A stretch of 42,085 bases of DNA. Origin: an uncultured beta proteobacterium. Its GTDB lineage: Bacteria > Pseudomonadota > Gammaproteobacteria > Burkholderiales > Burkholderiaceae_C. The translations under genes were made by a program, and so were the position numbers. Position 1 is the first letter of the stretch. Each line of letters opens with the position of its first letter. The stretch is taken from contig CAIRBF010000427.1 of NCBI GenBank assembly GCA_903876715.1, positions 1 through 42,085 on the forward strand. Reading direction: 5' to 3'. Under the pieces are notes generated by a model. The model had not been told where the DNA came from. It saw nothing but the letters and a program-made list of their open reading frames with translations, and ran no database searches. This document shows positions 13,131 to 42,085 of this stretch, one piece after another.

Positions 13131-13649
13131 ATGTCGTTTGGGCGTAGATTGGTGTTGGCCGGGGGTGTCTTGGCTGCTGGTGGCGCCTGCCTCGGTACGG
13201 CTATTTCATCAACCTTGGCTCGTCCGTCCGGTCCCGTGATCCTGACGGTTCGCGGCAAGGTTTCGATCACCAACGGCAGCGCTGGGGCCGATTTCGACAT
13301 GCCCATGCTCGAGCGCATGCCTCAGCGCCGCATCGTGACCAAGACCCCCTGGTACGAGTCGGCGAAAAGTTTCACGGGTCCGCTGTTGCGCGATGTGCTT
13401 GCGGCCAGCGGCGCCAAGGGCACGACGATCCGCGCCATTGCCCTGAACGACTACAAGGTCGAGATACCGTTCGATGATGCGCAGAAGATCGACGTCGTGA
13501 TGGCGAGATTGCTGGACGATCGCCCCATGTCCGTGCGGGAGAAGGGCCCTCTTTTCATCATCTACCCCTTCGACGATCTTCCCGAGGTGCGCTCTGCGGT
13601 CTACTTTGCCCGGTGCGCCTGGCAGTTGAGAACCCTCGAGCTTGTTTGA
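13131..13649 (+). CDS. Exported molybdopterin-binding-domain protein (SUOX-like), likely non-catalytic
   Basis: 172-aa protein starting MSFGRRLVLAGGVL after a GGAGA ribosome-binding site. The N-terminus is an export signal or membrane anchor with two arginines, reminiscent of Tat but without the full motif. The rest resembles the oxidoreductase molybdopterin-binding fold: VILTVRGKV, then TPWYESAKSFTGPLLRDVLA, then PLFIIYPFDDLPEV and the terminal WQLRTLELV. The ligand cysteine of sulfite-oxidase-type enzymes is not seen; the only cysteines are in the signal region and near the C-terminus. A sensory or ligand-binding role for the downstream kinase is inferred. The frame runs open from 13071 but has no better start. 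Confidence 0.7.
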   Translation: MSFGRRLVLAGGVLAAGGACLGTAISSTLARPSGPVILTVRGKVSITNGSAGADFDMPMLERMPQRRIVTKTPWYESAKSFTGPLLRDVLAASGAKGTTIRAIALNDYKVEIPFDDAQKIDVVMARLLDDRPMSVREKGPLFIIYPFDDLPEVRSAVYFARCAWQLRTLELV

Positions 13650-13669
13650 CTCCGGCGGGCGGTCTGGCC

Positions 13670-15679
13670 GTGGAGCCGACATCGCACCCTCACGAGCCTG
13701 CCCAGGCGTCGTCGTTCTCGAGCAATCCCCCCAACGGTGGGTTTCTGACCGCCTTGAGGAGGCCCCGCGGGCTGCTGTGGATGGGCGGGCTGTTCGTGCT
13801 CCTTCTGGGAGCGGTCGCCTGGATGCAGTGGCGCCAGAGTCAGCTCGTCTCGCAGGCCTTGGTGTCGGGTGGGGACAACATCGCGCACTTTCTCTATCAG
13901 GCCGACAACGAGTACCTGAGGTTGCGGGAGAGCTGGCCCAGGCCCGATCCCCGTGCAGCAGCGGACCCCGCTACTTTGCAGCTGCGCTACGACATCTTCG
14001 TCAGCCGCGTCGGGGTGCTGCGCAATGCCGCGCGCGTGCGCGGGATGACCCCGCAGCCCGAGCTTGCCCAGGCTCTCGCTGCGGCGGAGAGCTTCATCGA
14101 GCGAGCCGACAAGCTGTTGGGCCCTGGAGCATCGGCGCCCGATGCCTCCAGCCTGGCCGTCCTGTACCCGGAGTTGGTCCAACTCGACGTCCACATGCGT
14201 ACGCTGACGCAAAGCGCCTCGGACGTGATCGCCGTATCTGCCACCCGCTTGACCGAGGCGGGTCGGGCGCAGAACCGTCTCGGTCTGATGATGACGCTGG
14301 TGCTGGCTTTCCTGGCGGTCGGCTTCGCCGTTCTGACGCTGCGGGAGTTGCAGCGGCAGCAGGAGAAGCGTCAGGAACTTGAGGAGCTGACCCTCAGCCT
14401 GCGGGACGCACAGCGCGCTGCGGAGGCCGCCGCTGCATCCAAGAGCGCGTTCCTTGCGAACATGAGCCACGAGATCCGCACACCGTTCCAGGGCTTGCAA
14501 GGCATGCTCGGCCTCTTGGGCCAGACCCGGCTGGACGACACGCAATCCGGCTACCTGCGCACCGCTGCGGGGTCTGCCAGCCACCTGTTGACCATCCTCA
14601 ATGACATCCTGGACGCATCCAGCCTCGACTCTGGCGCGATCAAGATCGTTCCCGCCTCGCTAGCCCTCGCCGATCTGCTGTCGGAGGTCCAGGCCTTGAT
14701 GCAGCCCCAGGCTGCTCTGAAGGGCCTGCAACTGCGGGTGGAGGCGCTGCCCGGGCTTCCGCAGCGGGCGCTGCTCGACCCCACTCGCATGCGCCAGGTG
14801 CTGTTCAATCTGCTCGCCAATGCGATCAAGTTCACCGACGCTGGTGGGGTCACGCTGCATGTCGGTCCGGTTCGCCAGGGCGACGAGAAAACTCCTGTGA
14901 CAGGGCTGCGCTTTGTGATCAGCGACACGGGGGTCGGCATGGACGCCGCCGGGATGGCGCGCTTGTTCGAGCGCTTCGCCCAGGTAGACAGTTCCCGCTC
15001 GCGGCGATTCGGCGGGACAGGTCTGGGTCTCGAGATTTCCCGCCGGTTGGTCAGGATGATGGGCGGCGACATCACGGTCACGAGCCGCCCTGGCGAAGGA
15101 AGCACCTTCGTGGTGAGTGTGCCCTGGCTCGCGCCCGTCCTGAAGGCGTCCGAGGCGGGAATCGACAGGACGGAAAGTCCGGCCGCAGGCCTTGAACATG
15201 GGCCCTTGCGGGAGGGTGTCAACCCTGATCCAGGGCAGGGCCCGGGCATTCATGACGGCCGGGCCGAGCAAGAGGCCGCCCGACAGCTGAACATCCTCGT
15301 CGCGGAGGACAATGAAGTCAACCGCCTCGTGATGGAGGCCATGTTGGGTGAACTCGGGCACGACGCTCACTTTGCCGTGGACGGGTTGCAGGCGGTCGAG
15401 ATGGCTGCCCGGCGCCACTGGGACGTCATCTTGATGGACCTGCACATGCCCAACATGGATGGCCTCGAGGCCACGCGGGCGATCCGTGCCGGGTCCGACC
15501 CCGTCAAGGCCGCCGTGCCCGTCGTGGCATTGACTGCGGATGTGTTCGAGTCGACCCGTCAGCGGTGCGACGCGGAAGGCATTTCCGTTTTTCTCACCAA
15601 GCCTGTATCGGTCGCTGAACTCAAGGATTGCCTCGACCGCCATGGGGCGGCGCGCAGCAAGGCCGGCCGGCCGACGTGA
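13670..15679 (+). CDS. Hybrid sensor histidine kinase with C-terminal receiver
   Basis: About 669 aa. Order: TM1 (about 34-54), an extracytoplasmic sensor region of about 150 residues with no recognised fold, TM2 (about 204-225), a short coiled coil, HisKA with phospho-acceptor His near 267 in NMSHEIRTPFQG, HATPase (LLANAIKFT, SDTGVGMD, FGGTGLGLEISRRLV), and a receiver with Asp near 590 in LMDLHMPNMDG and Lys in FLTKPVS. The start is uncertain: GTG 13670 gives a 20-bp gap after the previous gene, GTG 13613 would overlap it. No separate response regulator or Hpt gene is in the window. It ends 6 bp from the convergent dehydrogenase gene. Confidence 0.88.
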   Translation: MEPTSHPHEPAQASSFSSNPPNGGFLTALRRPRGLLWMGGLFVLLLGAVAWMQWRQSQLVSQALVSGGDNIAHFLYQADNEYLRLRESWPRPDPRAAADPATLQLRYDIFVSRVGVLRNAARVRGMTPQPELAQALAAAESFIERADKLLGPGASAPDASSLAVLYPELVQLDVHMRTLTQSASDVIAVSATRLTEAGRAQNRLGLMMTLVLAFLAVGFAVLTLRELQRQQEKRQELEELTLSLRDAQRAAEAAAASKSAFLANMSHEIRTPFQGLQGMLGLLGQTRLDDTQSGYLRTAAGSASHLLTILNDILDASSLDSGAIKIVPASLALADLLSEVQALMQPQAALKGLQLRVEALPGLPQRALLDPTRMRQVLFNLLANAIKFTDAGGVTLHVGPVRQGDEKTPVTGLRFVISDTGVGMDAAGMARLFERFAQVDSSRSRRFGGTGLGLEISRRLVRMMGGDITVTSRPGEGSTFVVSVPWLAPVLKASEAGIDRTESPAAGLEHGPLREGVNPDPGQGPGIHDGRAEQEAARQLNILVAEDNEVNRLVMEAMLGELGHDAHFAVDGLQAVEMAARRHWDVILMDLHMPNMDGLEATRAIRAGSDPVKAAVPVVALTADVFESTRQRCDAEGISVFLTKPVSVAELKDCLDRHGAARSKAGRPT

Positions 15680-15685
15680 ACCGGT

Positions 15686-16603
15686 TCAGGAGTGGGCGGG
15701 GCCCGGGGTGCGAGGCACGATGCGCGCCCCGGTCAACTGCTCCTGGACCTCGACCAGTGAGGGCACGAACTTGCGCCCATGGCCGAGCGCGCTGGCCAGG
15801 GTCAGCGACTGGTGCACCGCCTCGCCCATGACGCTGGGGATGGCCAGCCCTTCAGCCAGGTGCGTGTAGTAGCGCACGTCCTTGCGTGCGTTGTCCAGCT
15901 CGAACTTCAGCCCGTCCATCTGGCCGTGGAGTGTCTTGGCCATGGCCTGGAAGAGGCCGCAGTTCACGGGGCCCGCTGAGATCAGGTCCACCAGCGCCTG
16001 CAGCTTCAGCCCGCTGCGCTCGCCTACCGCGAAGGCCTCGGCCGTTGCGGTGCAGATGGCCTGGGCGATGAAGTTGTTCAGCAGCTTGATGGTGTGCCCG
16101 GCACCCGGGCCGCCGACGTGGAAGACGTTTTCCGCGAAGCACTTCAGCACCGGCTGCAGGCTCTCGAACACCGCGGGCTCGGCCCCGATCATCACGTTCA
16201 GGCGGCCAGCCTCGGCCTCCACCGGGGTGCGCGACAGCGGCGCATCCGTGAAGGTGATGCCGGCGGCAGAGCAGCGCTCGCGCAGGCGGGCCGTCGACTC
16301 CGGCTCGCTGGTCGAGCAGTCCACGATCATCAGACCCGCGCGCGCGCCCTCGAGCAGACCGCCCGGTCCGGCGACACAGGCCTCGACCTGGGGCGAGCCG
16401 GTGACGCAGATGAAGACAAGGTCGCTGTCGCGCGCGACGTCCGCCAGCGTTGCCGCTTCGCGCGCGCCGGCGGCGAGCAGGTCGGCGACGCGCTCACGGT
16501 TGCGGTGCACGGTCAGCGTGAGTGTGTGGCCCTTGGCCAGCAGGTTGCGGGCCATGCCATGGCCCATCATGCCGCTGGCGCCGACGAATCCGATCCTCGC
16601 CAT
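15686..16603 (-). CDS. NAD(P)-dependent beta-hydroxyacid dehydrogenase (3-HIBDH/GarR superfamily)
   Basis: 305-aa member of the 6PGDH/3-hydroxyisobutyrate dehydrogenase superfamily. The N-terminal Rossmann loop is GFVGASGMMGHG, looser than the usual GLGxMG. The catalytic lysine is in GHTIKLLNNFIAQ (about residue 170). The substrate loop, typically DAPVSGG, reads DAPLSRTPVEAEAGRL, so the usual double glycine is missing and an unusual substrate is possible. Tartronate semialdehyde, threonate and similar sugar-derived hydroxyacids are plausible from context. It is third in the minus arm, 70 bp after the SDR gene, and is cut off from the idnD-like gene by the plus-strand kinase pair. Confidence 0.82.
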   Translation of the reverse strand: MARIGFVGASGMMGHGMARNLLAKGHTLTLTVHRNRERVADLLAAGAREAATLADVARDSDLVFICVTGSPQVEACVAGPGGLLEGARAGLMIVDCSTSEPESTARLRERCSAAGITFTDAPLSRTPVEAEAGRLNVMIGAEPAVFESLQPVLKCFAENVFHVGGPGAGHTIKLLNNFIAQAICTATAEAFAVGERSGLKLQALVDLISAGPVNCGLFQAMAKTLHGQMDGLKFELDNARKDVRYYTHLAEGLAIPSVMGEAVHQSLTLASALGHGRKFVPSLVEVQEQLTGARIVPRTPGPAHS

Positions 16604-16673: not shown

Positions 16674-17423
16674 TCAGCCGCGGCCTACGAAGGGCATCTT
16701 CGTCGCCATCACAGTGGTGAACAGCACGTTGGCCGTCAGCGGCAGTCGCGCCATGGCCATGAAGGTCTCGACCACCGCCGACATGTCCATGCGCGGTTCA
16801 GCCCGGACGCTGCCGTCGGCCTGGGGCACGCCCACCGCCATCCGCGCCGTCATGTCGCTGGCCACGTTGCCGATGTCGATCTGGCCCACTGCGATGTCGA
16901 AGGGCCGGCCGTCGAGCGAGGCTGTCTTCGTCAGGCCGCTGACGGCGTGCTTGGTCGCGGTGTAGGCGATCGAGCCCGGGCGTGGGGCGGTGGCCGAGAT
17001 GGAGCCGTTGTTGATGATGCGCCCGCCTTGGGGCTGCTGCTCGCGCATCAGCTTGAAGGCCGCCGACAGGCAATAGAACATGCCGTGCAGGTTGACGTCC
17101 ACGGCGGTGCGCCACTCGGCGCCTGACAGGTCGTCCGGCGTCGTGGCGCGGGGCGACACCCCGGCGTTGTTGAACAGCAGGTCGAGCCGGCCGAAGCGCT
17201 GCCGGATCTGCGAGAACAGCGCTGCAACCTCGTCTTCCTTCGAGACGTCGGCCGCCAGCGCCAGCCCTCGTGCTGCGTCGGCGCCGCAGGCATCGATCGC
17301 CGCCTGCAGCGCGTGGGCACGCCGGCCCGTGAAGACGACGGTCCAGCCATCGCGCAGCAGGTCCTGGGCGCAGGCCCGGCCGATGCCGCTGCTGGCGCCG
17401 GTGACGAGGGCGATCTTGGACAT
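16674..17423 (-). CDS. SDR family oxidoreductase
   Basis: 249-aa short-chain dehydrogenase with TGASSGIG cofactor loop, Arg-rich strand 2 end (VVFTGRRAH, suggesting NADP), NNAG in LFNNAGVSP, catalytic Ser in NGSISATAP, and YTATKHAVSG near residue 150. The C-terminal third (IDIGNVASDMTARM) belongs to a subgroup often found beside IlvD/Edd sugar-acid dehydratases; its substrate is not known to me. It starts 26 bp after the dehydratase stop, so co-expression is very likely. The start MSKIALVTGAS is chosen over an open upstream frame that overlaps the dehydratase. Confidence 0.82.
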   Translation of the reverse strand: MSKIALVTGASSGIGRACAQDLLRDGWTVVFTGRRAHALQAAIDACGADAARGLALAADVSKEDEVAALFSQIRQRFGRLDLLFNNAGVSPRATTPDDLSGAEWRTAVDVNLHGMFYCLSAAFKLMREQQPQGGRIINNGSISATAPRPGSIAYTATKHAVSGLTKTASLDGRPFDIAVGQIDIGNVASDMTARMAVGVPQADGSVRAEPRMDMSAVVETFMAMARLPLTANVLFTTVMATKMPFVGRG

Positions 17424-17449
17424 GAAGTGCTCTCTACAGGGTGGGGGTC

Positions 17450-19207
17450 TCAGTGGTTGTCCTTGGGGACGAAAGCTCCGCGACGGCCGCGCAGGAAGTC
17501 GAGGTCGGCGCCTTCGTCGGCCTGCAGCACGTGGTCGATGTAGAGCTTCCAGTAGCCGCTGGTCAGCGGCGGCGTCGGCGGCGCCCATGCGGCGCGGCGG
17601 CGCTCGAGTTCCTCGTCGTCCACGTGCAGGTGCAGGCGGCGCGCCGCCACGTCCAGCGTGATCAGGTCGCCGCTCTTCACCAGCGCCAGCGGTCCGCCCG
17701 CGGCAGCCTCGGGGGAGGTGTGCAGCACGACGGTGCCGTAGGCCGTGCCGCTCATCCGGGCGTCGCTGATCCGCACCATGTCCGTGACGCCCTTGCGCAG
17801 CACCTTCGGCGGCAGCGGCATGTTGCCGACTTCGGCCATCCCCGGGTAGCCCTTGGGCCCGCAGTTCTTCAGCACCAGGATGCAGGTCTCGTCGACGTCC
17901 AGGCTCTCGTCGTCGATGCGGCGGTGGAAGTCGTCGCTGTCCTCGAAGACCACGGCGCGGCCCGTGTGCTGCATCAGCGCCGGCGTGGCTGCGCTGGGCT
18001 TGATCACGGCGCCGCGCGGCGAGAGATTGCCGCGCAGGATGGCGATGCCGGCCTTTTCCTTGAAGGGCTGGTCGAAGGGCTTGATCACGTCCGGGTTGTA
18101 GTTGGCCGCATCTGCGATGTTCTCGGCCACCGTGCGTCCAGTGACCGTGACGTGGTCGGTGTGCAGCAGGTGGGCGATCTCCTTCATCACCGCCGGCAGG
18201 CCGCCGGCGTAGCAGAAGTCCTCCATCAGGTACTTGCCACTGGGCTGCAGGTTCAGCAGGCAGGGCAGCTCACTGCCCAGGCGCTCGAAATCGTCCACCG
18301 TCAGCGGCACGCCGATGCGCCCGGCGATCGCGATCAGGTGGATCACCGCGTTCGTGCTGCCGCCGATGGCAGCGAGTGCGCGGATCGCGTTCTCGAAGGC
18401 CTGGCGCGTGAGGACGGTGGAAAGCTTCTGGTCCTCGTGCACCATCTCGACGATGCGTCGGCCGGCCTGGCGCGCAATGACGTTGCGCCGCCCGTCGACG
18501 GCGGGGTAGGCAGCGTTGCCGGGCAGGCCCACGCCCAGAGCCTCGACCATGCTGGCCATCGTGCTGGCCGTGCCCATCGTCATGCAGTGGCCATGGCTGC
18601 GGTGCATGCAACTCTCGGCCTCGAAAAAGTCCTGCAGCTTGAGCGTGCCGGCACGCACCTGCTCGCTCATGCTCCACACACCCGTGCCGGATCCCAGTTC
18701 CTGGCCGCGCCACTTGCCGTTGAGCATGGGGCCGCCGGAGACGCCGATCGTCGGCAGGTCGGCGCTCGATGCGCCCATCAGCAGGCTGGGCGTGGTCTTG
18801 TCGCAGCCGAACAGCAGCACCACGCCGTCGATCGGGTTGCCGCGAATGCTTTCCTCGACGTCCATGCTGGCCAGGTTGCGGTAGAGCATTGCGGTTGGCC
18901 GCAGCAGCGTCTCACCCAGCGACATGACCGGGAACTCCAGCGGGAAACCGCCGGCCTCGTACACCCCGATCTTGACCTGTTCGGCCAGGGTGCGGAAGTG
19001 CGAGTTGCAGGGCGTCAGCTCGCTGAAGGTGTTGCAGATGCCGATGACCGGACGGCCGTCGAACTGGTCGTGCGGGATGCCCTTGCCCTTGACCCAGCTG
19101 CGGTAGGCGAAACCGTCGCGGTCCTGGCGGCCGAACCATTGCTGGCTGCGCAGCGTGGAGGGGTCGCGCCGGGGTTTCTTGGAGGAGGGGGTCTGGTCGT
19201 CGCTCAT
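17450..19207 (-). CDS. IlvD/Edd-family sugar-acid dehydratase (L-arabinonate/D-xylonate type)
   Basis: 585-aa iron-sulfur dehydratase. Cysteines at residues 67 (TPCNSH), 135 (FGCDKTTPS) and 208 (GHCMTMGTAS) are 68 and 73 residues apart, the spacing I recall for the [2Fe-2S] ligands of L-arabinonate and D-xylonate dehydratases. DARMSGTAYG carries the family's catalytic serine. It is distinct from the housekeeping ilvD at the right edge of the window. Product: a 2-keto-3-deoxy acid from an aldonate; pentonate versus hexonate use is undecided. First gene of the minus arm, with its start about 40 bp from the 19.25 kb inverted repeat. Confidence 0.87.
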   Translation of the reverse strand: MSDDQTPSSKKPRRDPSTLRSQQWFGRQDRDGFAYRSWVKGKGIPHDQFDGRPVIGICNTFSELTPCNSHFRTLAEQVKIGVYEAGGFPLEFPVMSLGETLLRPTAMLYRNLASMDVEESIRGNPIDGVVLLFGCDKTTPSLLMGASSADLPTIGVSGGPMLNGKWRGQELGSGTGVWSMSEQVRAGTLKLQDFFEAESCMHRSHGHCMTMGTASTMASMVEALGVGLPGNAAYPAVDGRRNVIARQAGRRIVEMVHEDQKLSTVLTRQAFENAIRALAAIGGSTNAVIHLIAIAGRIGVPLTVDDFERLGSELPCLLNLQPSGKYLMEDFCYAGGLPAVMKEIAHLLHTDHVTVTGRTVAENIADAANYNPDVIKPFDQPFKEKAGIAILRGNLSPRGAVIKPSAATPALMQHTGRAVVFEDSDDFHRRIDDESLDVDETCILVLKNCGPKGYPGMAEVGNMPLPPKVLRKGVTDMVRISDARMSGTAYGTVVLHTSPEAAAGGPLALVKSGDLITLDVAARRLHLHVDDEELERRRAAWAPPTPPLTSGYWKLYIDHVLQADEGADLDFLRGRRGAFVPKDNH

Positions 19208-19243
19208 CGGGCTGCTCGCTTTCCCGGGGGTATCGTGAAGGGT

Positions 19244-19269
19244 AATCGTCCTATTATGGTATGACGATT
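19244..19269. promoter_or_regulatory. Candidate GntR/FadR-type operator between divergent arms
   Basis: AATCGTC (19244-19250) and GACGATT (19263-19269) form a perfect 7-bp inverted repeat with a 12-bp spacer. Overlapping it, TGGTATGACGA at 19257-19267 fits the GntR-family consensus TNGTNNNACNA. TATTAT at 19252-19257 is a good -10 candidate for the plus arm, so a bound repressor would cover it. The site lies in the 100 bp between the start of the IlvD/Edd gene and the start of the 2-hydroxyacid dehydrogenase gene. The FadR-type regulator at 21986 is the natural candidate to bind it. Confidence 0.55.
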
Positions 19270-19307
19270 GCAACCAGTTGGGCCTTACCGGCCCCGAGGA
19301 AACCCCG

Positions 19308-20261
19308 GTGTCCGACATTCATGTTCTTGGAGCAGCCAAGTTCTCGCCGACCTACCTGTCACAACTGCAGGCAGCGTTCGCCTTGCACGATCGGGTGCAT
19401 CAGACCGACCCTGCCGGGTTCGCGACCATCGCGCCTTCCATCCGCGCGGTGGCCGCCAGCGGCGAGTCGCGCGTCGACGCCACGCTGATCGCGGCCCTGC
19501 CGGCGCTGGAGATCATCTCGGTGTTCGGTGTCGGCTACGACGGTGTCGACGTCCAGGCGGCGCGTGAGCGCGGCGTGATGGTCACGCACACGCCCAACGT
19601 GCTCAACGACGACGTGGCCGATCTCGCCATCGGCCTGATGCTGTGCGCCGCCCGTCAGCTCCAAGCGGCCGACCGCCATGTGCGCGGCGGGCACTGGCTG
19701 CAGGGGCCGCTGCCGCTGGGGCGCAAGGTCTCGGGCGCGCGCCTGGGTATCGTCGGCATGGGACGCATCGGCCAGGTGATCGCGCGCCGTGCCCAGGCCT
19801 TCGACATGCGTATCGCCTACACCGCACGCGCGGCCCGGCCCGGCCTGCCCTACGCCTACCACGCCGACCCGGTCTCCCTGGCGGCCGAGTGCGACTTCCT
19901 GATTGTCATCACGCCCGGCGGCGCCGCGACCCGGCACCTCATCGACGCCCGCGTGCTGCAGGCCCTCGGGCCCAAGGGGATCCTGGTCAACGTGGCGCGG
20001 GGCTCGGTGGTCGACGAGAACGCCCTGGTCGAGGCTCTGGAAAGCGGCGCGCTCGGCGGCGCCGCGCTGGACGTCTTCCAGGACGAGCCGCGCGTGCCGC
20101 AGCGCCTGATCGGCTTGCCGCACGTGGTGCTGGCGCCGCACATCGGCAGCGCGACGACGCAGACTCGCCAGGCGATGGCCGATCTCGCCTTTGGCAACCT
20201 GCGCGAGCACTTTGCTGGCCGTCCGGTCCTCAGCCCGGTGCCGGAATGCGCGCCGCGCTGA
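19308..20261 (+). CDS. D-2-hydroxyacid dehydrogenase (GhrB-like)
   Basis: 317-aa D-isomer-specific 2-hydroxyacid dehydrogenase: VFGVGYDGVDVQAA, TPNVLNDDVADLAIGL, NAD loop GIVGMGRIGQVIA near residue 150, catalytic Arg in NVARGSVVDE, Glu in FQDEPRVP and His in APHIGSATT. The family reduces glyoxylate, hydroxypyruvate or 2-ketogluconate; the last would feed the gluconokinase next door. GTG at 19308 is chosen because GAGGA sits 7 bp upstream; a TTG at 19278 lacks such a site. First gene of the plus arm. Confidence 0.87.
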   Translation: MSDIHVLGAAKFSPTYLSQLQAAFALHDRVHQTDPAGFATIAPSIRAVAASGESRVDATLIAALPALEIISVFGVGYDGVDVQAARERGVMVTHTPNVLNDDVADLAIGLMLCAARQLQAADRHVRGGHWLQGPLPLGRKVSGARLGIVGMGRIGQVIARRAQAFDMRIAYTARAARPGLPYAYHADPVSLAAECDFLIVITPGGAATRHLIDARVLQALGPKGILVNVARGSVVDENALVEALESGALGGAALDVFQDEPRVPQRLIGLPHVVLAPHIGSATTQTRQAMADLAFGNLREHFAGRPVLSPVPECAPR

Positions 20262-20286
20262 ATCGGACGGGTGTGAGGCTGCCTCG

Positions 20287-20775
20287 ATGCATCACGTGGT
20301 CGTGATGGGCGTGTCCGGCTGCGGCAAGTCCACGGTCGGGCAATTCTTGTCAGCCCGACTGGGATTGCCCTTCGTCGAGGGCGACGGGCTGCACCCGCCG
20401 GACAACGTGCGCAAGATGGCGGCGGGGACGCCCTTGACCGACGAGGATCGCGCGGGCTGGCTCGACGCCATCGCCGCGCGCCTGGTCGCCGCCCCCGGCG
20501 GCGCGGTCGTCTCTTGCTCGGCATTGAAGCGGCGCTACCGTGAGCGCCTTTGTGCCGACGTCCCGGCGCTGCGCTTCGTGCATCTGCACGGCCCGCGTGA
20601 GCTCCTGGCGCAGCGGTTGGCCGGCCGGCGCGGGCATTACATGCCGTCTTCGCTGTTGGACAGCCAGTTGCACACGCTCGAGCCTCCCGGGCCCGACGAG
20701 CGCGCCATCGCGCTGAGCATCGACCAGCCCCCTGAAACCCTGGCTGCGCTCGCGGCCGCTGCCCTGCAGGCATGA
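20287..20775 (+). CDS. gntK: Gluconokinase (GntK/IdnK type)
   Basis: 162-aa P-loop kinase converting D-gluconate to 6-phosphogluconate. Walker A is MGVSGCGKST at residues 6-15; the substrate region GDGLHPPDNVRKMAAGTPLTD, SCSALKRRYRE, and the lid RRGHYMPSSLLDSQL are typical of the family, and length is normal. It starts 25 bp after the dehydrogenase and stops 4 bp before the SDR. It is the only sugar-acid kinase of the locus and the exit to the Entner-Doudoroff or pentose phosphate pathway. Confidence 0.93.
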   Translation: MHHVVVMGVSGCGKSTVGQFLSARLGLPFVEGDGLHPPDNVRKMAAGTPLTDEDRAGWLDAIAARLVAAPGGAVVSCSALKRRYRERLCADVPALRFVHLHGPRELLAQRLAGRRGHYMPSSLLDSQLHTLEPPGPDERAIALSIDQPPETLAALAAAALQA

Positions 20776-20779
20776 CCCG

Positions 20780-21550
20780 ATGATCGACGACAAGACCTTT
20801 CGCCTCGACGGCCGCCTCGCCCTCGTCACCGGCTCCTCGGCCGGCATCGGCCGCGCGCTGGCGCGCGGCCTGGCCCAGGCCGGTGCCGCCGTCGTGCTCA
20901 ACGGGCGGGACGCGGCCCGGCTGGAGGCCACAGCCGCTGCGCTGCGCGCAGAGGGCCTGACGGTGCATGAGCGGGCCTTCGACGTCTGCGATGCCGCCGC
21001 CGTGGAGGCCGCCATCGCCGGCATCGAGGCCGACATCGGCCCGATCGACGTCCTCGTCAACAACGCCGGCATCCAGCGCCGGGCGCCCTTCCACGAGTTC
21101 GCGCACGCCGACTGGCAGGAACTCATGCGCACCAACCTAGACAGCGTCTTCTTCGTCGGTCAGGCGGTCGCCCGGCGCATGGTGCCGCGCCGGCGCGGGC
21201 GCATCATCAACATCTGCTCGGTGATGAGTGAGCTCGGTCGCGCCTCGGTCGTGCCGTACACCGCGAGCAAGGGCGGAGTGAAGATGCTGACCAAGGGCAT
21301 GGCGGTGGACCTCGGCCCGCACGGCATCACCGTCAACGGCATCGGGCCGGGATATTTCAAGACGGAGCTCAATGCCAAGCTGGTTGCCGACGAGGCTTTC
21401 AGCACCTGGCTCGTCAACCGCACCCCGAGCCGGCGCTGGGGCGAGGTCGAGGACCTCGCGCCGGCGGCGGTCTTCCTCGCCAGCGACGCCGGTCGCTTCG
21501 TCAACGGACACATCCTCTACGTCGACGGCGGAGTCACCGCCGCGCTCTGA
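20780..21550 (+). CDS. idnO: SDR, gluconate 5-dehydrogenase-like
   Basis: 256-aa SDR with the N-terminus FRLDGRLALVTGSSAGIG typical of 5-keto-D-gluconate reductases, Arg near the end of strand 2 (NGRDAARL, NADP-leaning), VNNAGIQRRAPFHEF, catalytic Ser in INICSVMSELGR, YTASKGGVKMLTK near residue 160 and GIGPGYFKTELN. It would interconvert 5-ketogluconate and gluconate, linking the idnD-like enzyme to gluconokinase, whose gene ends 4 bp upstream. 2-Keto-3-deoxygluconate oxidoreductase is the main alternative. Confidence 0.82.
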   Translation: MIDDKTFRLDGRLALVTGSSAGIGRALARGLAQAGAAVVLNGRDAARLEATAAALRAEGLTVHERAFDVCDAAAVEAAIAGIEADIGPIDVLVNNAGIQRRAPFHEFAHADWQELMRTNLDSVFFVGQAVARRMVPRRRGRIINICSVMSELGRASVVPYTASKGGVKMLTKGMAVDLGPHGITVNGIGPGYFKTELNAKLVADEAFSTWLVNRTPSRRWGEVEDLAPAAVFLASDAGRFVNGHILYVDGGVTAAL

Positions 21551-21552
21551 CC

Positions 21553-21936
21553 ATGGTCACGTTCACACAGGTGATCCTCGAAACCGGCGCCGACGGGCGG
21601 GCGCGCTTTCGCGAGGCCGTGATCGCGCTCGACGAAGGCACCCCGCAGGCCATGCTGTCGCGCCTGCGGCCCAGCGGTGGACTGCAGCTGCGTATGAGCC
21701 CCGTGGGCTTCCGCAGCGCTTTCCATTGCACCGTGAGGCCGCAATGGCTGTTCGCCCATTCGGGCTGCATGGAGATCGGGCTTCAGGACGGCAGTTCGCG
21801 CCTGTTCGGTCCGGGTGAGCACTTCGACTCGACCGACACGCTGCTTGCGGGGGCCGTCTTCGACCCCGCCGTGCACGGACACTGGAGCCGGCAGGTGGGA
21901 CCCCAGCCGCTGGTGACTGCGTTCGTGCGCGGCTGA
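21553..21936 (+). CDS. Small conserved cupin-like protein, unknown function
   Basis: 127-aa protein starting 2 bp after the SDR stop. It appears to be a single small beta-barrel: LDEGTPQAMLSRL, then FRSAFHCTVRPQWLFAHSG, MEIGLQDGSSRLFGPGEHF, and VHGHWSRQVG near the C-terminus. The Gly-Pro-Gly-Glu-His turn is cupin-like, but a complete metal-binding histidine set is not obvious. Tight linkage suggests a pathway role such as an isomerase or lactone handler; that is only inference. I do not recognise a characterised homologue. Confidence 0.65.
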   Translation: MVTFTQVILETGADGRARFREAVIALDEGTPQAMLSRLRPSGGLQLRMSPVGFRSAFHCTVRPQWLFAHSGCMEIGLQDGSSRLFGPGEHFDSTDTLLAGAVFDPAVHGHWSRQVGPQPLVTAFVRG

Positions 21937-21985: not shown

Positions 21986-22786
21986 ATGAAGAACGCCCTG
22001 ACCCACACCCTTGGAGCCCTGGGGCGGGCCATCGCCGAGGGTCGCCACCCGCCGGGCTCCACGTTGCCACCCGAGCCCATGCTGGGTGCCGCGCTGGGGG
22101 TCAGCCGCACCGTGGTCCGCGAGGCTGTCAAGTCGCTTGTGGCGAAGGGCATGCTCGTCACCGGCCCCAAGCTCGGCACGCGGGTGCTGCCGGCCGACCA
22201 CTGGAACTGGTTCGACCCCGAACTGGTTGCCTGGCAGGCTGCGGCAGGACTGACGCGCGACTTCCTGCTCGACCTGCAGGAACTGCGCCGCATCGTCGAG
22301 CCCGCGGCGGTGCGGCTGGCGGCACAGCGCGCCGATGCACAGGACCTCGCCGGGCTCGAAGCGGCCTACGCCGGCATGCGTGAGGCGATCGAGCGCGGCG
22401 GCGACTACGTCAGTCACGACCTGCGCTTTCACCAGGGCTTGATGCGGGCTTCCCACAACCGCATGCTGGTGCAGATGAGCAAGGCGCTCGGCGCGCTCCT
22501 GCGCACGAGCTTCGAGATCTCGACTTCGCACGCCCCGGGGCCTGCGCAATCGCTGCGGCTGCACCGGGCGGTGCTCGATGCGGTCGCTTCCCGCCTTCCG
22601 GCTCAGGCCGAGCGTGCCATCATCGAACTCATCGACGGCGCCGCGGAGGACATCGAGCACGTGCTCGCCACCCGTGGCGATCTGCCGTCCCTGGCCATGC
22701 CGCCCAAGCCGCTCGTCGCGCGCCCCGCGCGCGCGGTCGCATCCCCCCGAACCCCATCCCCCCTCTCGCGGAGATCTCCCCCATGA
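21986..22786 (+). CDS. FadR-subfamily GntR transcriptional regulator
   Basis: 266-aa repressor-type regulator. The winged helix (residues about 8-72) includes GSTLPPEPMLGAALGVSRTVVREAVKSL as its core, and the C-terminal FCD ligand domain (about 95-225) has metal-site residues in DLRFHQGLM and LRLHRAVLDAV. FCD regulators of this kind sense sugar acids such as galactonate or gluconate. A Pro/Arg-rich tail of about 27 residues follows the domain. The stop overlaps the start of the DenD-like gene by ATGA. It probably autoregulates its operon through the site at 19244-19269. Confidence 0.9.
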   Translation: MKNALTHTLGALGRAIAEGRHPPGSTLPPEPMLGAALGVSRTVVREAVKSLVAKGMLVTGPKLGTRVLPADHWNWFDPELVAWQAAAGLTRDFLLDLQELRRIVEPAAVRLAAQRADAQDLAGLEAAYAGMREAIERGGDYVSHDLRFHQGLMRASHNRMLVQMSKALGALLRTSFEISTSHAPGPAQSLRLHRAVLDAVASRLPAQAERAIIELIDGAAEDIEHVLATRGDLPSLAMPPKPLVARPARAVASPRTPSPLSRRSPP

Positions 22787-23796
22787 AAATCCTGATCACC
22801 GGCGGCGCCGGTTTCGTCGGTACCCGGCTTGCGCGTGCACTGCTCGAGCGAGGACACCTCAGAGGTCGTCCCATCGACACCCTGGTGCTGACCGATCAGT
22901 TCCCCGCACGCCCTGAGATGGCGCAGCATCCTCGCGTGCAGGTGCGCACCGCGGCGCTGCTGGCCCAGTGCGAGGCGCTGCGCGAAGAACCCTTCGACGC
23001 CGTCTTCCATCTGGCCTCGGCCGTGTCTGGCGAATGTGAAGCCGACTTCGATCTCGGCCTGCGCTCCAATCTGGACAGCACGCGCGCGCTGCTGGACGCA
23101 CTTCGGCACCGCACGGAGCGCGGCGCCGCGCCGACGTGCCTGGTGTTCTCGAGTTCCATCGCCGTCTTCGGCCCCGATCCCGCGTACCCCTTTCCCGAGG
23201 TCGTCGGCGACAGCACGCTGCCGATGCCGCAAACCAGCTATGGCACACAGAAGCTCGTGTGCGAGCACCTGATCGCCGACTACACACGCAAGGGCTACAT
23301 CGACGGCCGTACGGCCCGCCTGGTGACGGTCACGGTGCGGCCAGGTCGCCCCAACGGCGCGGCGAGTTCCTTCTTCAGCGGCATCATCCGCGAGCCCCTG
23401 GCGGGCGAGGACGCGGCGCTTCCGGTGGACCTGTCGGTGCGCCACCCTGTGGGGTCGGTGCAGAGCATGGTGCGGGGCCTGATCGCGGTGGCCGAAGCCA
23501 GCCGCGAGGCCTTCGTCGGGCGCTCGGCGATCACGCTGCCCGGCTTGAACGTCAGCGTTCAGGAGATGCTGGACGCGCTCGAGAAGGTCGCCGGTGCGAA
23601 GGTGAGGGCGCGCGTCAAGCCGCAGCGCGACGAGCGCATCGCCGCCATCGTGGCCAATTGGCCGCGTGGCGTGGTCACCCCGCGGGCGAACGCGCTCGGG
23701 CTGCAGGCCGAGGCGAGCTTCGAGGACATCATCCGCCTTTACATCGAGGATTGCCGGCGCGACAACCCGCAGGCGCTGCGCGGGCTGGACAGCTGA
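22783..23796 (+). CDS. denD: DenD-like NAD-dependent epimerase/dehydrogenase
   Basis: 337-aa extended SDR. NAD loop TGGAGFVGTRLA at residues 6-17, FHLASAVSGECEADF, active-site SSSIAVFG and SYGTQKLVCEHL (YxxxK near residue 153), then VTVRPGRPNGAASSFFSG, characteristic of the D-erythronate dehydrogenase group. DenD oxidises D-erythronate at C2 in tetronate catabolism; however the usual partners (OtnK kinase, OtnC aldolase, OtnI isomerase) are not in the window, so the enzyme may serve another aldonate here. Last gene of the plus arm, translationally coupled to the regulator. Confidence 0.8.
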   Translation: MKILITGGAGFVGTRLARALLERGHLRGRPIDTLVLTDQFPARPEMAQHPRVQVRTAALLAQCEALREEPFDAVFHLASAVSGECEADFDLGLRSNLDSTRALLDALRHRTERGAAPTCLVFSSSIAVFGPDPAYPFPEVVGDSTLPMPQTSYGTQKLVCEHLIADYTRKGYIDGRTARLVTVTVRPGRPNGAASSFFSGIIREPLAGEDAALPVDLSVRHPVGSVQSMVRGLIAVAEASREAFVGRSAITLPGLNVSVQEMLDALEKVAGAKVRARVKPQRDERIAAIVANWPRGVVTPRANALGLQAEASFEDIIRLYIEDCRRDNPQALRGLDS

Positions 23797-41339: not shown

Positions 41340-42085
41340 TCAATCGCCGTCGAGCACCGCCCCCCGGCTGGCCGTCGCCGCATTGCGCGCGAACTTGGCC
41401 AGTACGCCACGCGTGTAGCGCGGCGCCGGCTGCTTCCACGCGGCGCGGCGGGCGGCGATCTCGGCCTCGGGCACGTTCAACTGCAGCAGCAGTTGGTGCG
41501 CGTCGATCGTGATCGTGTCGCCCTCCTGGACGAGCGCGATCACGCCACCTTCGTAGGCCTCGGGCGCCACGTGGCCCACGACCATGCCCCACGTGCCGCC
41601 GGAGAAGCGCCCGTCGGTGATCAGGCCCACGCTCTCACCCAGGCCCTGGCCGATCAGCGCGCCGGTGGGCGCCAGCATCTCCGGCATGCCCGGGCCGCCC
41701 TTGGGGCCCAGGTAACGCAGCACCATCACGTCACCGGCGACGATCTTGCCGGCCATGATGGCGGCCAGTGCGCTCTGCTCGTCGTCGAACACCCGCGCCG
41801 GGCCTGTCATGACCGGGTTCTTCAAGCCGGTGATCTTCGCCACACAGCCCTCCGGGCTGAGGTTGCCCTTCAGGATGGCCAGGTGGCCGTCGGCGTACAC
41901 CGGGTTCGTGACCGGGCGGATGGCGTCCTGGTCGGTGCGCAGCGGCGGCAGTGCGGCCAGGTTCTCGGCCACGGTCTTGCCGGTGATGGTCATGCAGTCG
42001 CCATGCAGCAAGCCGGCGTCCAGCAGTTCCTTCATCACTGCAGGAATACCACCGGCGCGGTGCAGGTCGATGGCCAGGTACTTGC
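41340..42085 (-). CDS. ilvD: Dihydroxy-acid dehydratase, 3' part only
   Basis: About 248 C-terminal residues of IlvD, the valine/isoleucine-pathway dehydratase; the 5' end lies beyond the window. Visible marks: [65 protein letters not shown], and [20 protein letters not shown] with the catalytic-serine region. The C-terminus ([20 protein letters not shown]) is normal. The GRFSGGTWG motif distinguishes it from the sugar-acid IlvD/Edd paralogue at 17.4-19.2 kb, which has DARMSGTAYG. Nothing notable lies in the 96 bp up to the SYLF gene. Confidence 0.95.

Follow-up and report, generated by a model that had tools for sequence, protein, structure and literature searches.

The DNA analyzed here, a stretch of 42,085 bases referred to as the window, contains two divergently oriented gene sets separated by a 100-bp spacer, each of which was assigned to a putative operon on the basis of gene order. 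The first gene of the left operon (17450–19207, − strand; PF00920 and PF24877) encodes an IlvD/Edd-family sugar-acid dehydratase (DHAD), which scored 937.7 bits with model NF004784 and 862.8 bits with the L-arabinonate dehydratase model, below the cut-off of 882 for the latter. The same operon includes a gene encoding a short-chain dehydrogenase (listed as 16674–17588, − strand, with a likely start near 17426) and a gene (15686–16603, − strand) with profile matches to 3-hydroxyisobutyrate-dehydrogenase-like enzymes. The right operon, located on the + strand, begins with a GTG-initiated gene encoding a D-isomer 2-hydroxyacid dehydrogenase (HADH; 19308–20261; PF02826 and PF00389). This gene is followed by an ATG-initiated P-loop kinase gene (20287–20775; AAA_33/SKI match of the longer ORF 20191–20775), the product of which we take to be gluconokinase-like, by a gene encoding a gluconate-5-dehydrogenase-like short-chain dehydrogenase (20780–21550; best models below their cut-offs), and by a small conserved ORF with no Pfam match (21553–21936). 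The last two genes of the right operon encode a DgoR-like regulator of the GntR/FadR subfamily, which represents the proposed operator binder (21986–22786; PF00392 and PF07729), and a D-erythronate-dehydrogenase-like protein (22783–23796; 345.1 bits with NF043036, cut-off 325). A hybrid histidine kinase with a receiver domain is encoded convergently to the left operon (13613–15679, + strand); two ORFs on the − strand (13601–14584 and 14660–15643) lie opposite this histidine kinase gene, are probably not genes, and were rejected as such. A second dehydratase-family match, approximately 40% identical, is found from window position 41358 onward on the − strand. An Rfam search of 19000–19500 returned no match.

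The spacer contains an 11-mer, TGGTATGACGA (19257–19267, + strand), that fits the GntR consensus TNGTNNNACNA, as a previous sequence-only reading of this DNA had pointed out, and that has the properties of a GntR/FadR-type operator core; TNGTNNNACNA is given as the FadR-subfamily consensus in the available part of PMC2230225, and the palindrome with its GT-N3-AC arrangement is present at 19257–19267. That reading had also seen no second match in the intergenic gaps inspected within the locus; this observation extends to the whole window, as TNGTNNNACNA was matched only once in the 42,085 bases (both strands), compared to 2.43 matches expected in the shuffled window. When the 100-bp spacer was dinucleotide-shuffled 2000 times, TNGTNNNACNA was found in 0.7% of the shuffled versions, and TNGTNNNACNA together with a 7-bp inverted repeat in 0.05%. 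The perfect 7-bp inverted repeat to which the sequence-only reading had drawn attention is also present (AATCGTC at 19244–19250 and GACGATT at 19263–19269, separated by 12 nt), and its ungapped extension yields 10-nt arms with 90% identity. By itself, this repeat is unremarkable, since approximately one in ten shuffled spacers yields one (10.3% of the 2000 dinucleotide shuffles, with a loop of 3–20); the density of 7-bp repeats with such loops in the whole window is 0.37 per 100 bp. The noteworthy part is the 11-mer TGGTATGACGA within this spacer, rather than the repeat. A 17-nt imperfect inverted repeat (82%) brackets the spacer (19169–19185 and 19292–19308); the right arm of this longer repeat contains GAGGAAACCCC and adjoins the HADH start.

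Phylogenetic footprinting of the orthologous spacer, proposed in the sequence-only reading as a check of its repeat, supported the 11-mer and refuted the repeat. The footprint was based on 51 DHAD spacers facing HADH (49) or a small ORF (2); 44 of the 51 contained TGGT...AC[GC]A, and 25 remained after filtering to <70% identity in the flanks. This filter removed L003 and L032, the nearest relatives, as redundant with the window. A conserved block surrounds the operator (19251–19271, + strand; relatives' consensus ATACTATGGTATGACGATTGA), with an information content of 0.60–1.91 bit per column across the 25 spacers (lowest at 19254 and 19271) and scrambled flanks; selecting for TGGT...AC[GC]A fixes or narrows columns 19257–19260 and 19264–19267 by construction, and leaves columns 19251–19256, 19261–19263, and 19268–19271, as well as the flanks, free. 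The site in the window scored 27.5 bits with a matrix built from 38 distinct sites without the window's own. Departures among the relatives include TCATATGATGA, which is off consensus, and sites with a varied middle, as in TGGTCATACGA. On this comparative evidence, the predicted GntR-type operator is genuine. An arrangement of two tandem operators (TCGTCCTATTA beside TGGTATGACGA) was also considered and rejected; the left one reached no more than 5.9 bits, and its outer half was unconserved.

The right arm of the 7-bp repeat (GACGATT, 19263–19269, + strand) is conserved because it is located within the operator block, whereas the left arm (AATCGTC, 19244–19250, + strand) is unconserved, with ≤0.09 bit at 19244–19249 and 0.41 bit at 19250; columns 19241–19249, which include most of the left arm, carry ≤0.15 bit each in the 25 spacers. 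Pairing of the two arms at 7/7 positions is seen in the window only; the other 24 of the 25 non-redundant spacers pair at 0–3/7 positions, while the nearest relative (L003 and L032; G059/L032), dropped from the 25-spacer set as redundant, pairs at 6/7. The exact arms in the window and the 6/7 pairing in its nearest relative would fit a reading in which the 26-bp repeat (19244–19269) is itself the operator, and weaker boxes described 7–12 nt off GntR site centres (PMC4494728) would fit one in which the left arm offers a second GntR subunit an additional half-site, as the inner edge of this arm is located 12 nt from the centre. However, the near-zero information content of the left arm across the 25 orthologous spacers, the poor pairing in 24 of these, and the frequency of 7-bp repeats among shuffled spacers make either version very improbable, and the inverted repeat was rejected as the operator on the basis of the footprint. 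Judging from these spacers, the 7-bp repeat is a lineage-local coincidence that overlaps a genuine site and has no conserved role; an eye-catching repeat and a conserved site need not coincide.

From the centre of the site, it is 54 nt to the start of DHAD and 46 nt to that of HADH, which places the site near the middle of the spacer. In 43 related spacers, with starts estimated from alignment ends, the longer the spacer, the farther the site is from the start on either side (r 0.84 and 0.91). Single-site divergons of the FadR subfamily, in which a lone palindrome close to the centre of the spacer is proposed to control both operons, have been described previously (PMC4494728); the locus studied here shares with these the single site near mid-spacer and the distances growing with spacer length, and nothing basic differs, except that the relatives examined here also include a double-site form with a site near each start. 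The site overlaps the −10 candidate that the sequence-only reading had placed within its repeat, TATTAT (19252–19257, + strand), which represents the putative −10 of the HADH-side promoter and is often TACTAT in relatives; across the 25 spacers, no variation occurs at T19252 or A19256, and 84% have A19253, while T19257 is invariant by selection. A putative −10 of the DHAD-side promoter is located at 19251–19256 on the − strand (TAATAG in the window, often TAGTAT or TAATAT in relatives); this assignment is weak, with TACCAT at 19261–19256 as an alternative candidate. Both −10 candidates were called from conservation only, because a consensus scan of the spacer for a sigma-70 −35/−10 hexamer pair scored none.

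The regulator encoded at 21986–22786 matched the GntR profile with 51.2 bits (cut-off 27) and carries the all-helical C-terminal FCD domain that characterizes the FadR subfamily (PF07729; 93.1 bits, cut-off 24.3). Its structure model (pLDDT 88, 13-sequence alignment) has an all-helical C-terminus and matches FadR-type structures, including DNA complexes (E 1e-8 to 1e-6); the best PDB sequence match is DgoR (7c7e, E 3.8e-30). Among 13 orthologues, no variation was seen at S40, R41, T42, V43, R45, and E46, which belong to the recognition-helix region; with regard to covariation of helix and operator, the residues of this helix barely vary. D145, H149, and H193 are also invariant (13 sequences) and align with D146, H150, and H195 of DgoR, identified as metal ligands in the available part of PMC7674646, and R101 matches R102 of DgoR.

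DgoR is described as the GntR/FadR repressor of the Escherichia coli D-galactonate operon, with repeats that overlap the dgo promoter (PMC12288454, available part). The regulator described here resembles DgoR in its wHTH plus FCD layout with a conserved Asp-His-His metal triad, in the location of its gene within an operon proposed as its target, and in a predicted operator that contains GT-N3-AC and overlaps a putative promoter; IR1 of DgoR holds TTGTAGTACAA (PMC12288454 and PMC7674646, available parts). The two systems differ in operator sequence, in the number of repeats (two at dgo, as compared to one here), and in the divergent gene pair present here. They also differ in the ligand pocket, where the D-galactonate contacts Q173, R179, W181, and R224 of DgoR correspond to L172, I178, T180, and about D222, residues that were read by eye, with T180 beside a gap and D222 just past the aligned stretch. 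On these contacts, the regulator was not classed as a DgoR orthologue. Because several D-galactonate-pocket residues differ, the ligand is probably a metal-bound sugar acid other than D-galactonate.

To place the site in its phylogenetic context, 148 related genomes were searched with HADH and GntR as queries, each of which supplied 30 neighbourhoods, and more were taken from 80 further named contigs, the titles of which are mostly Burkholderiales. The region upstream of DHAD was compared for 101 loci, counting the window and including loci that share a genome or come from near-identical ones; 71 of these regions match TNGTNNNACNA exactly, while 30 have no exact match (e.g., TCATATGATGA); 69 of the 71 exact matches are at the homologous place, and two regions (L055 and L072) match elsewhere only. 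A site of >13 bits is present in 100 of the 101 regions (the exception being L110), according to a matrix trained on these same regions, and high scores at related loci thus prove nothing alone. Presence of the motif and presence of the regulator were also compared across genomes. TATSGTATGAYGATTG was found in 31 of the 148 relatives (0/148 for the reversed control pattern), and a GntR orthologue (E up to 1e-40) in 38 of the 148; in a tally made by hand, 30 genomes have both motif and GntR, one has the motif only, eight have GntR only, and 109 have neither (Fisher p 7e-23, a value that ignores shared ancestry). GntR and DHAD move together with the motif as a single locus, and, among the matches listed, 44 of 44 are on a contig with a DHAD, HADH, or GntR match.

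The motif-only genome is G039, in which no GntR was detected and for which the contig has 11,091 bases. Four of the eight GntR-only genomes (G017, G047, G078, and G082) have a variant site upstream of DHAD (19.0–24.3 bits; G047 and G078 belonged to the matrix training set). No complete DHAD orthologue was found in the other four; G019 and G058 have no DHAD at the threshold used, G030 has a contig-end fragment, and G021 has a 68% homologue only. A DHAD match (E up to 1e-250) without a GntR orthologue was found in seven genomes, including G039, which has the site; no operator was seen upstream of DHAD in the other six (best score 7.3 bits), where DHAD identity is 89% in G045 and 66–74% in the other five. 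An open frame on the same strand ends 7–10 nt before the DHAD match in both G045 and G146; DHAD probably follows another gene in its transcript there, so that the missing site says little, and the G045 assembly is 80% complete. The informative negatives are G098, G110, G126, and G111, in which DHAD seems to head its transcript. The DHAD paralogues in G006 and G021 also have no site; the G021 paralogue closely follows an open frame (0–10 nt). One contig titled Akkermansia muciniphila (L073, CALQKH020000016.1) contains a Limnohabitans-like locus with a 67% GntR and similar gene order and sites; this record is probably a mislabelled or contaminated MAG.

The same motif was found at other promoters of the locus in relatives. 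The gene divergent from DHAD is gntR in most loci of Limnohabitans, Variovorax, and Xenophilus, and the spacer between the two carries one or two sites; Limnohabitans spacers often have TCGTATGACGA near DHAD and TCATATGATGA near gntR. An intermediate gene order (DHAD −, HADH +, GntR +) was observed in L045, L082, L085, and L096 and may link the two locus arrangements. A further site is located shortly after HADH in a number of relatives (e.g., CTTATCGTATGATGATTGA, − strand). In L033, which is the one post-HADH-site locus with downstream genes annotated, this site is followed by an ABC transporter (solute-binding protein, two permeases, and an ATPase); in the window, the kinase gene directly follows HADH, and no second site is found there. 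The sequence-only reading had suggested that the spacer site could be the single control point for the outer genes of both arms; shared control was supported by the comparison, and the site is single in the window, but an extra copy is present in some relatives. A search of the window's own genome with TATGGTATGACGATTG at ≤3 mismatches gave one perfect match and six matches with 2–3 mismatches; the six weaker matches (6.6–15.4 bits) look like chance. Reading frames were viewed for two of these six; the best (L115) is inside a 634-aa ORF, while L113 (11.4 bits) is in no frame of >100 aa.

Based on these comparisons, we consider it quite probable that TGGTATGACGA, within its 21-bp block, is the operator of the DgoR-like FadR-type regulator encoded at 21986–22786, and that this regulator represses both arms until a sugar acid relieves the repression; the GntR site and the 21986–22786 protein as its likely binder are among the parts of the sequence-only reading that were supported by comparison, while the repeat as an element was not. 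A GntR dimer would bind the 19251–19271 block and, lying over the −10 regions of the two divergent promoters, would exclude RNA polymerase from both. Held off on the left would be the dehydratase, the short-chain dehydrogenase, and the 3-hydroxyisobutyrate-dehydrogenase-like enzyme; held off on the right would be the 2-hydroxyacid dehydrogenase, the kinase, the short-chain dehydrogenase, the small ORF, the regulator itself, and the erythronate-dehydrogenase-like enzyme. A sugar acid bound at the metal site in the C-terminal FCD domain would free the regulator from the operator, resulting in joint induction of both arms along with the regulator's own gene.

The presence of −10-like hexamers inside the block and of a second box at a fairly fixed upstream distance could also suggest that the block serves as a core promoter or is bound by another regulator, with the GntR protein acting elsewhere. 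We regard this as unlikely, as the block agrees with the consensus of the FadR subfamily, is found again in relatives ahead of gntR and behind HADH, tracks GntR presence among the 148 genomes, and is unseen before the four transcript-heading DHAD homologues in GntR-less genomes. Marginally less probable still is a GntR protein that binds here yet activates one or both promoters; while GntR1/2 of Corynebacterium are reported to activate ptsG from a site centred at −60 (PMC2230225, available part), the site described here overlaps the predicted −10s, suggesting steric repression of the kind reported for DgoR (PMC12288454, available part). By comparison, TGGTATGACGA is thus probably the control point that both arms of this divergent sugar-acid locus share, and the system is of a well-known kind; GguR, AraR2, UxuR, and the GntR regulator of the L-gulonate locus, discussed for microbial-mat proteobacteria in the available part of PMC5507952, similarly represent GntR-family control of sugar-acid loci, several of which include a transporter. 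Literature searches, including searches with the literal operator and box motifs, gave no title on such a regulon among the matches listed, although text in figures or supplements would escape these searches; the regulon may already be predicted in RegPrecise or in supplements of papers. A predicted operator is now available for the GntR orthologue group in many Burkholderiales sugar-acid loci, along with a predicted ligand class and a predicted regulon that comprises the dehydratase and dehydrogenase arms and the ABC transporter found in a relative.

The least ordinary part of the locus is an upstream box, CGCTTTCCC (19217–19225, + strand), which belongs to the HADH-side promoter and has a distance of exactly 35 bp to the downstream TATTAT; read in reverse, as GGGAAAGCG, it differs from GGGWWWNYC by one letter. 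In relatives, GGG[AT][AT][AT]N[CT]C, read in the direction of the downstream gene, precedes the operator core by 29–31 nt in 19 of 22 non-redundant gntR promoters and by the same distance in 20 of 27 promoters of non-query next genes (including the ABC transporter of L033), as compared to a shuffled mean of 0.2 in each promoter class; the shuffles permuted single letters inside a given stretch, and the sequences had been seen before the pattern was chosen. The promoter stretches used for this count were reduced from 170 to 100, and no match was found at −70 to −45 in either class (0/22 and 0/27). On the HADH side, a looser, mirrored box is located 32–38 bp before the −10 in 19 of the 28 spacers retained after near-identical flanks were dropped, at exactly 35 bp in 10 of them; two of the remaining spacers have the box at 23–24 and seven have none, some of these stretches perhaps being cut short. 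Evidence for a DHAD-side box is weaker than for the HADH side, with GGGNNNNCC at −45 to −12 in 11 of 48 regions (3.0 in shuffled sequences) and the strict pattern in 2 of 48; no DHAD-side box was identified in the window.

Before the eight DHAD homologues and paralogues without operator, the box was matched once, 231 nt away, in G021. AGGGTTTWCC had 3–16 matches in each of six genomes, compared to 2–16 for the reversed control, and exceeded the control in five of the six; a role of the box as a global element was rejected after 20 of 63 places, from two of the six genomes, showed no common promoter layout by eye. Class II activators sit near −43. The spacing of the box places it near this position, and it may be an activator site. 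A tentative possibility, to which we give somewhat less than even weight, is that the operons of this locus are preceded by a two-module promoter in which the GntR operator lies over the −10 and the box (roughly CNGG-N6-CCNG) replaces the −35 and is read by an activator, such that, for induction, the repressor would have to leave and the activator would have to be present. The near-fixed distance of the box points to a second regulator. A GGGWWWNYC-like box is shared by several promoter classes, as seen in L033, L047, and L055.
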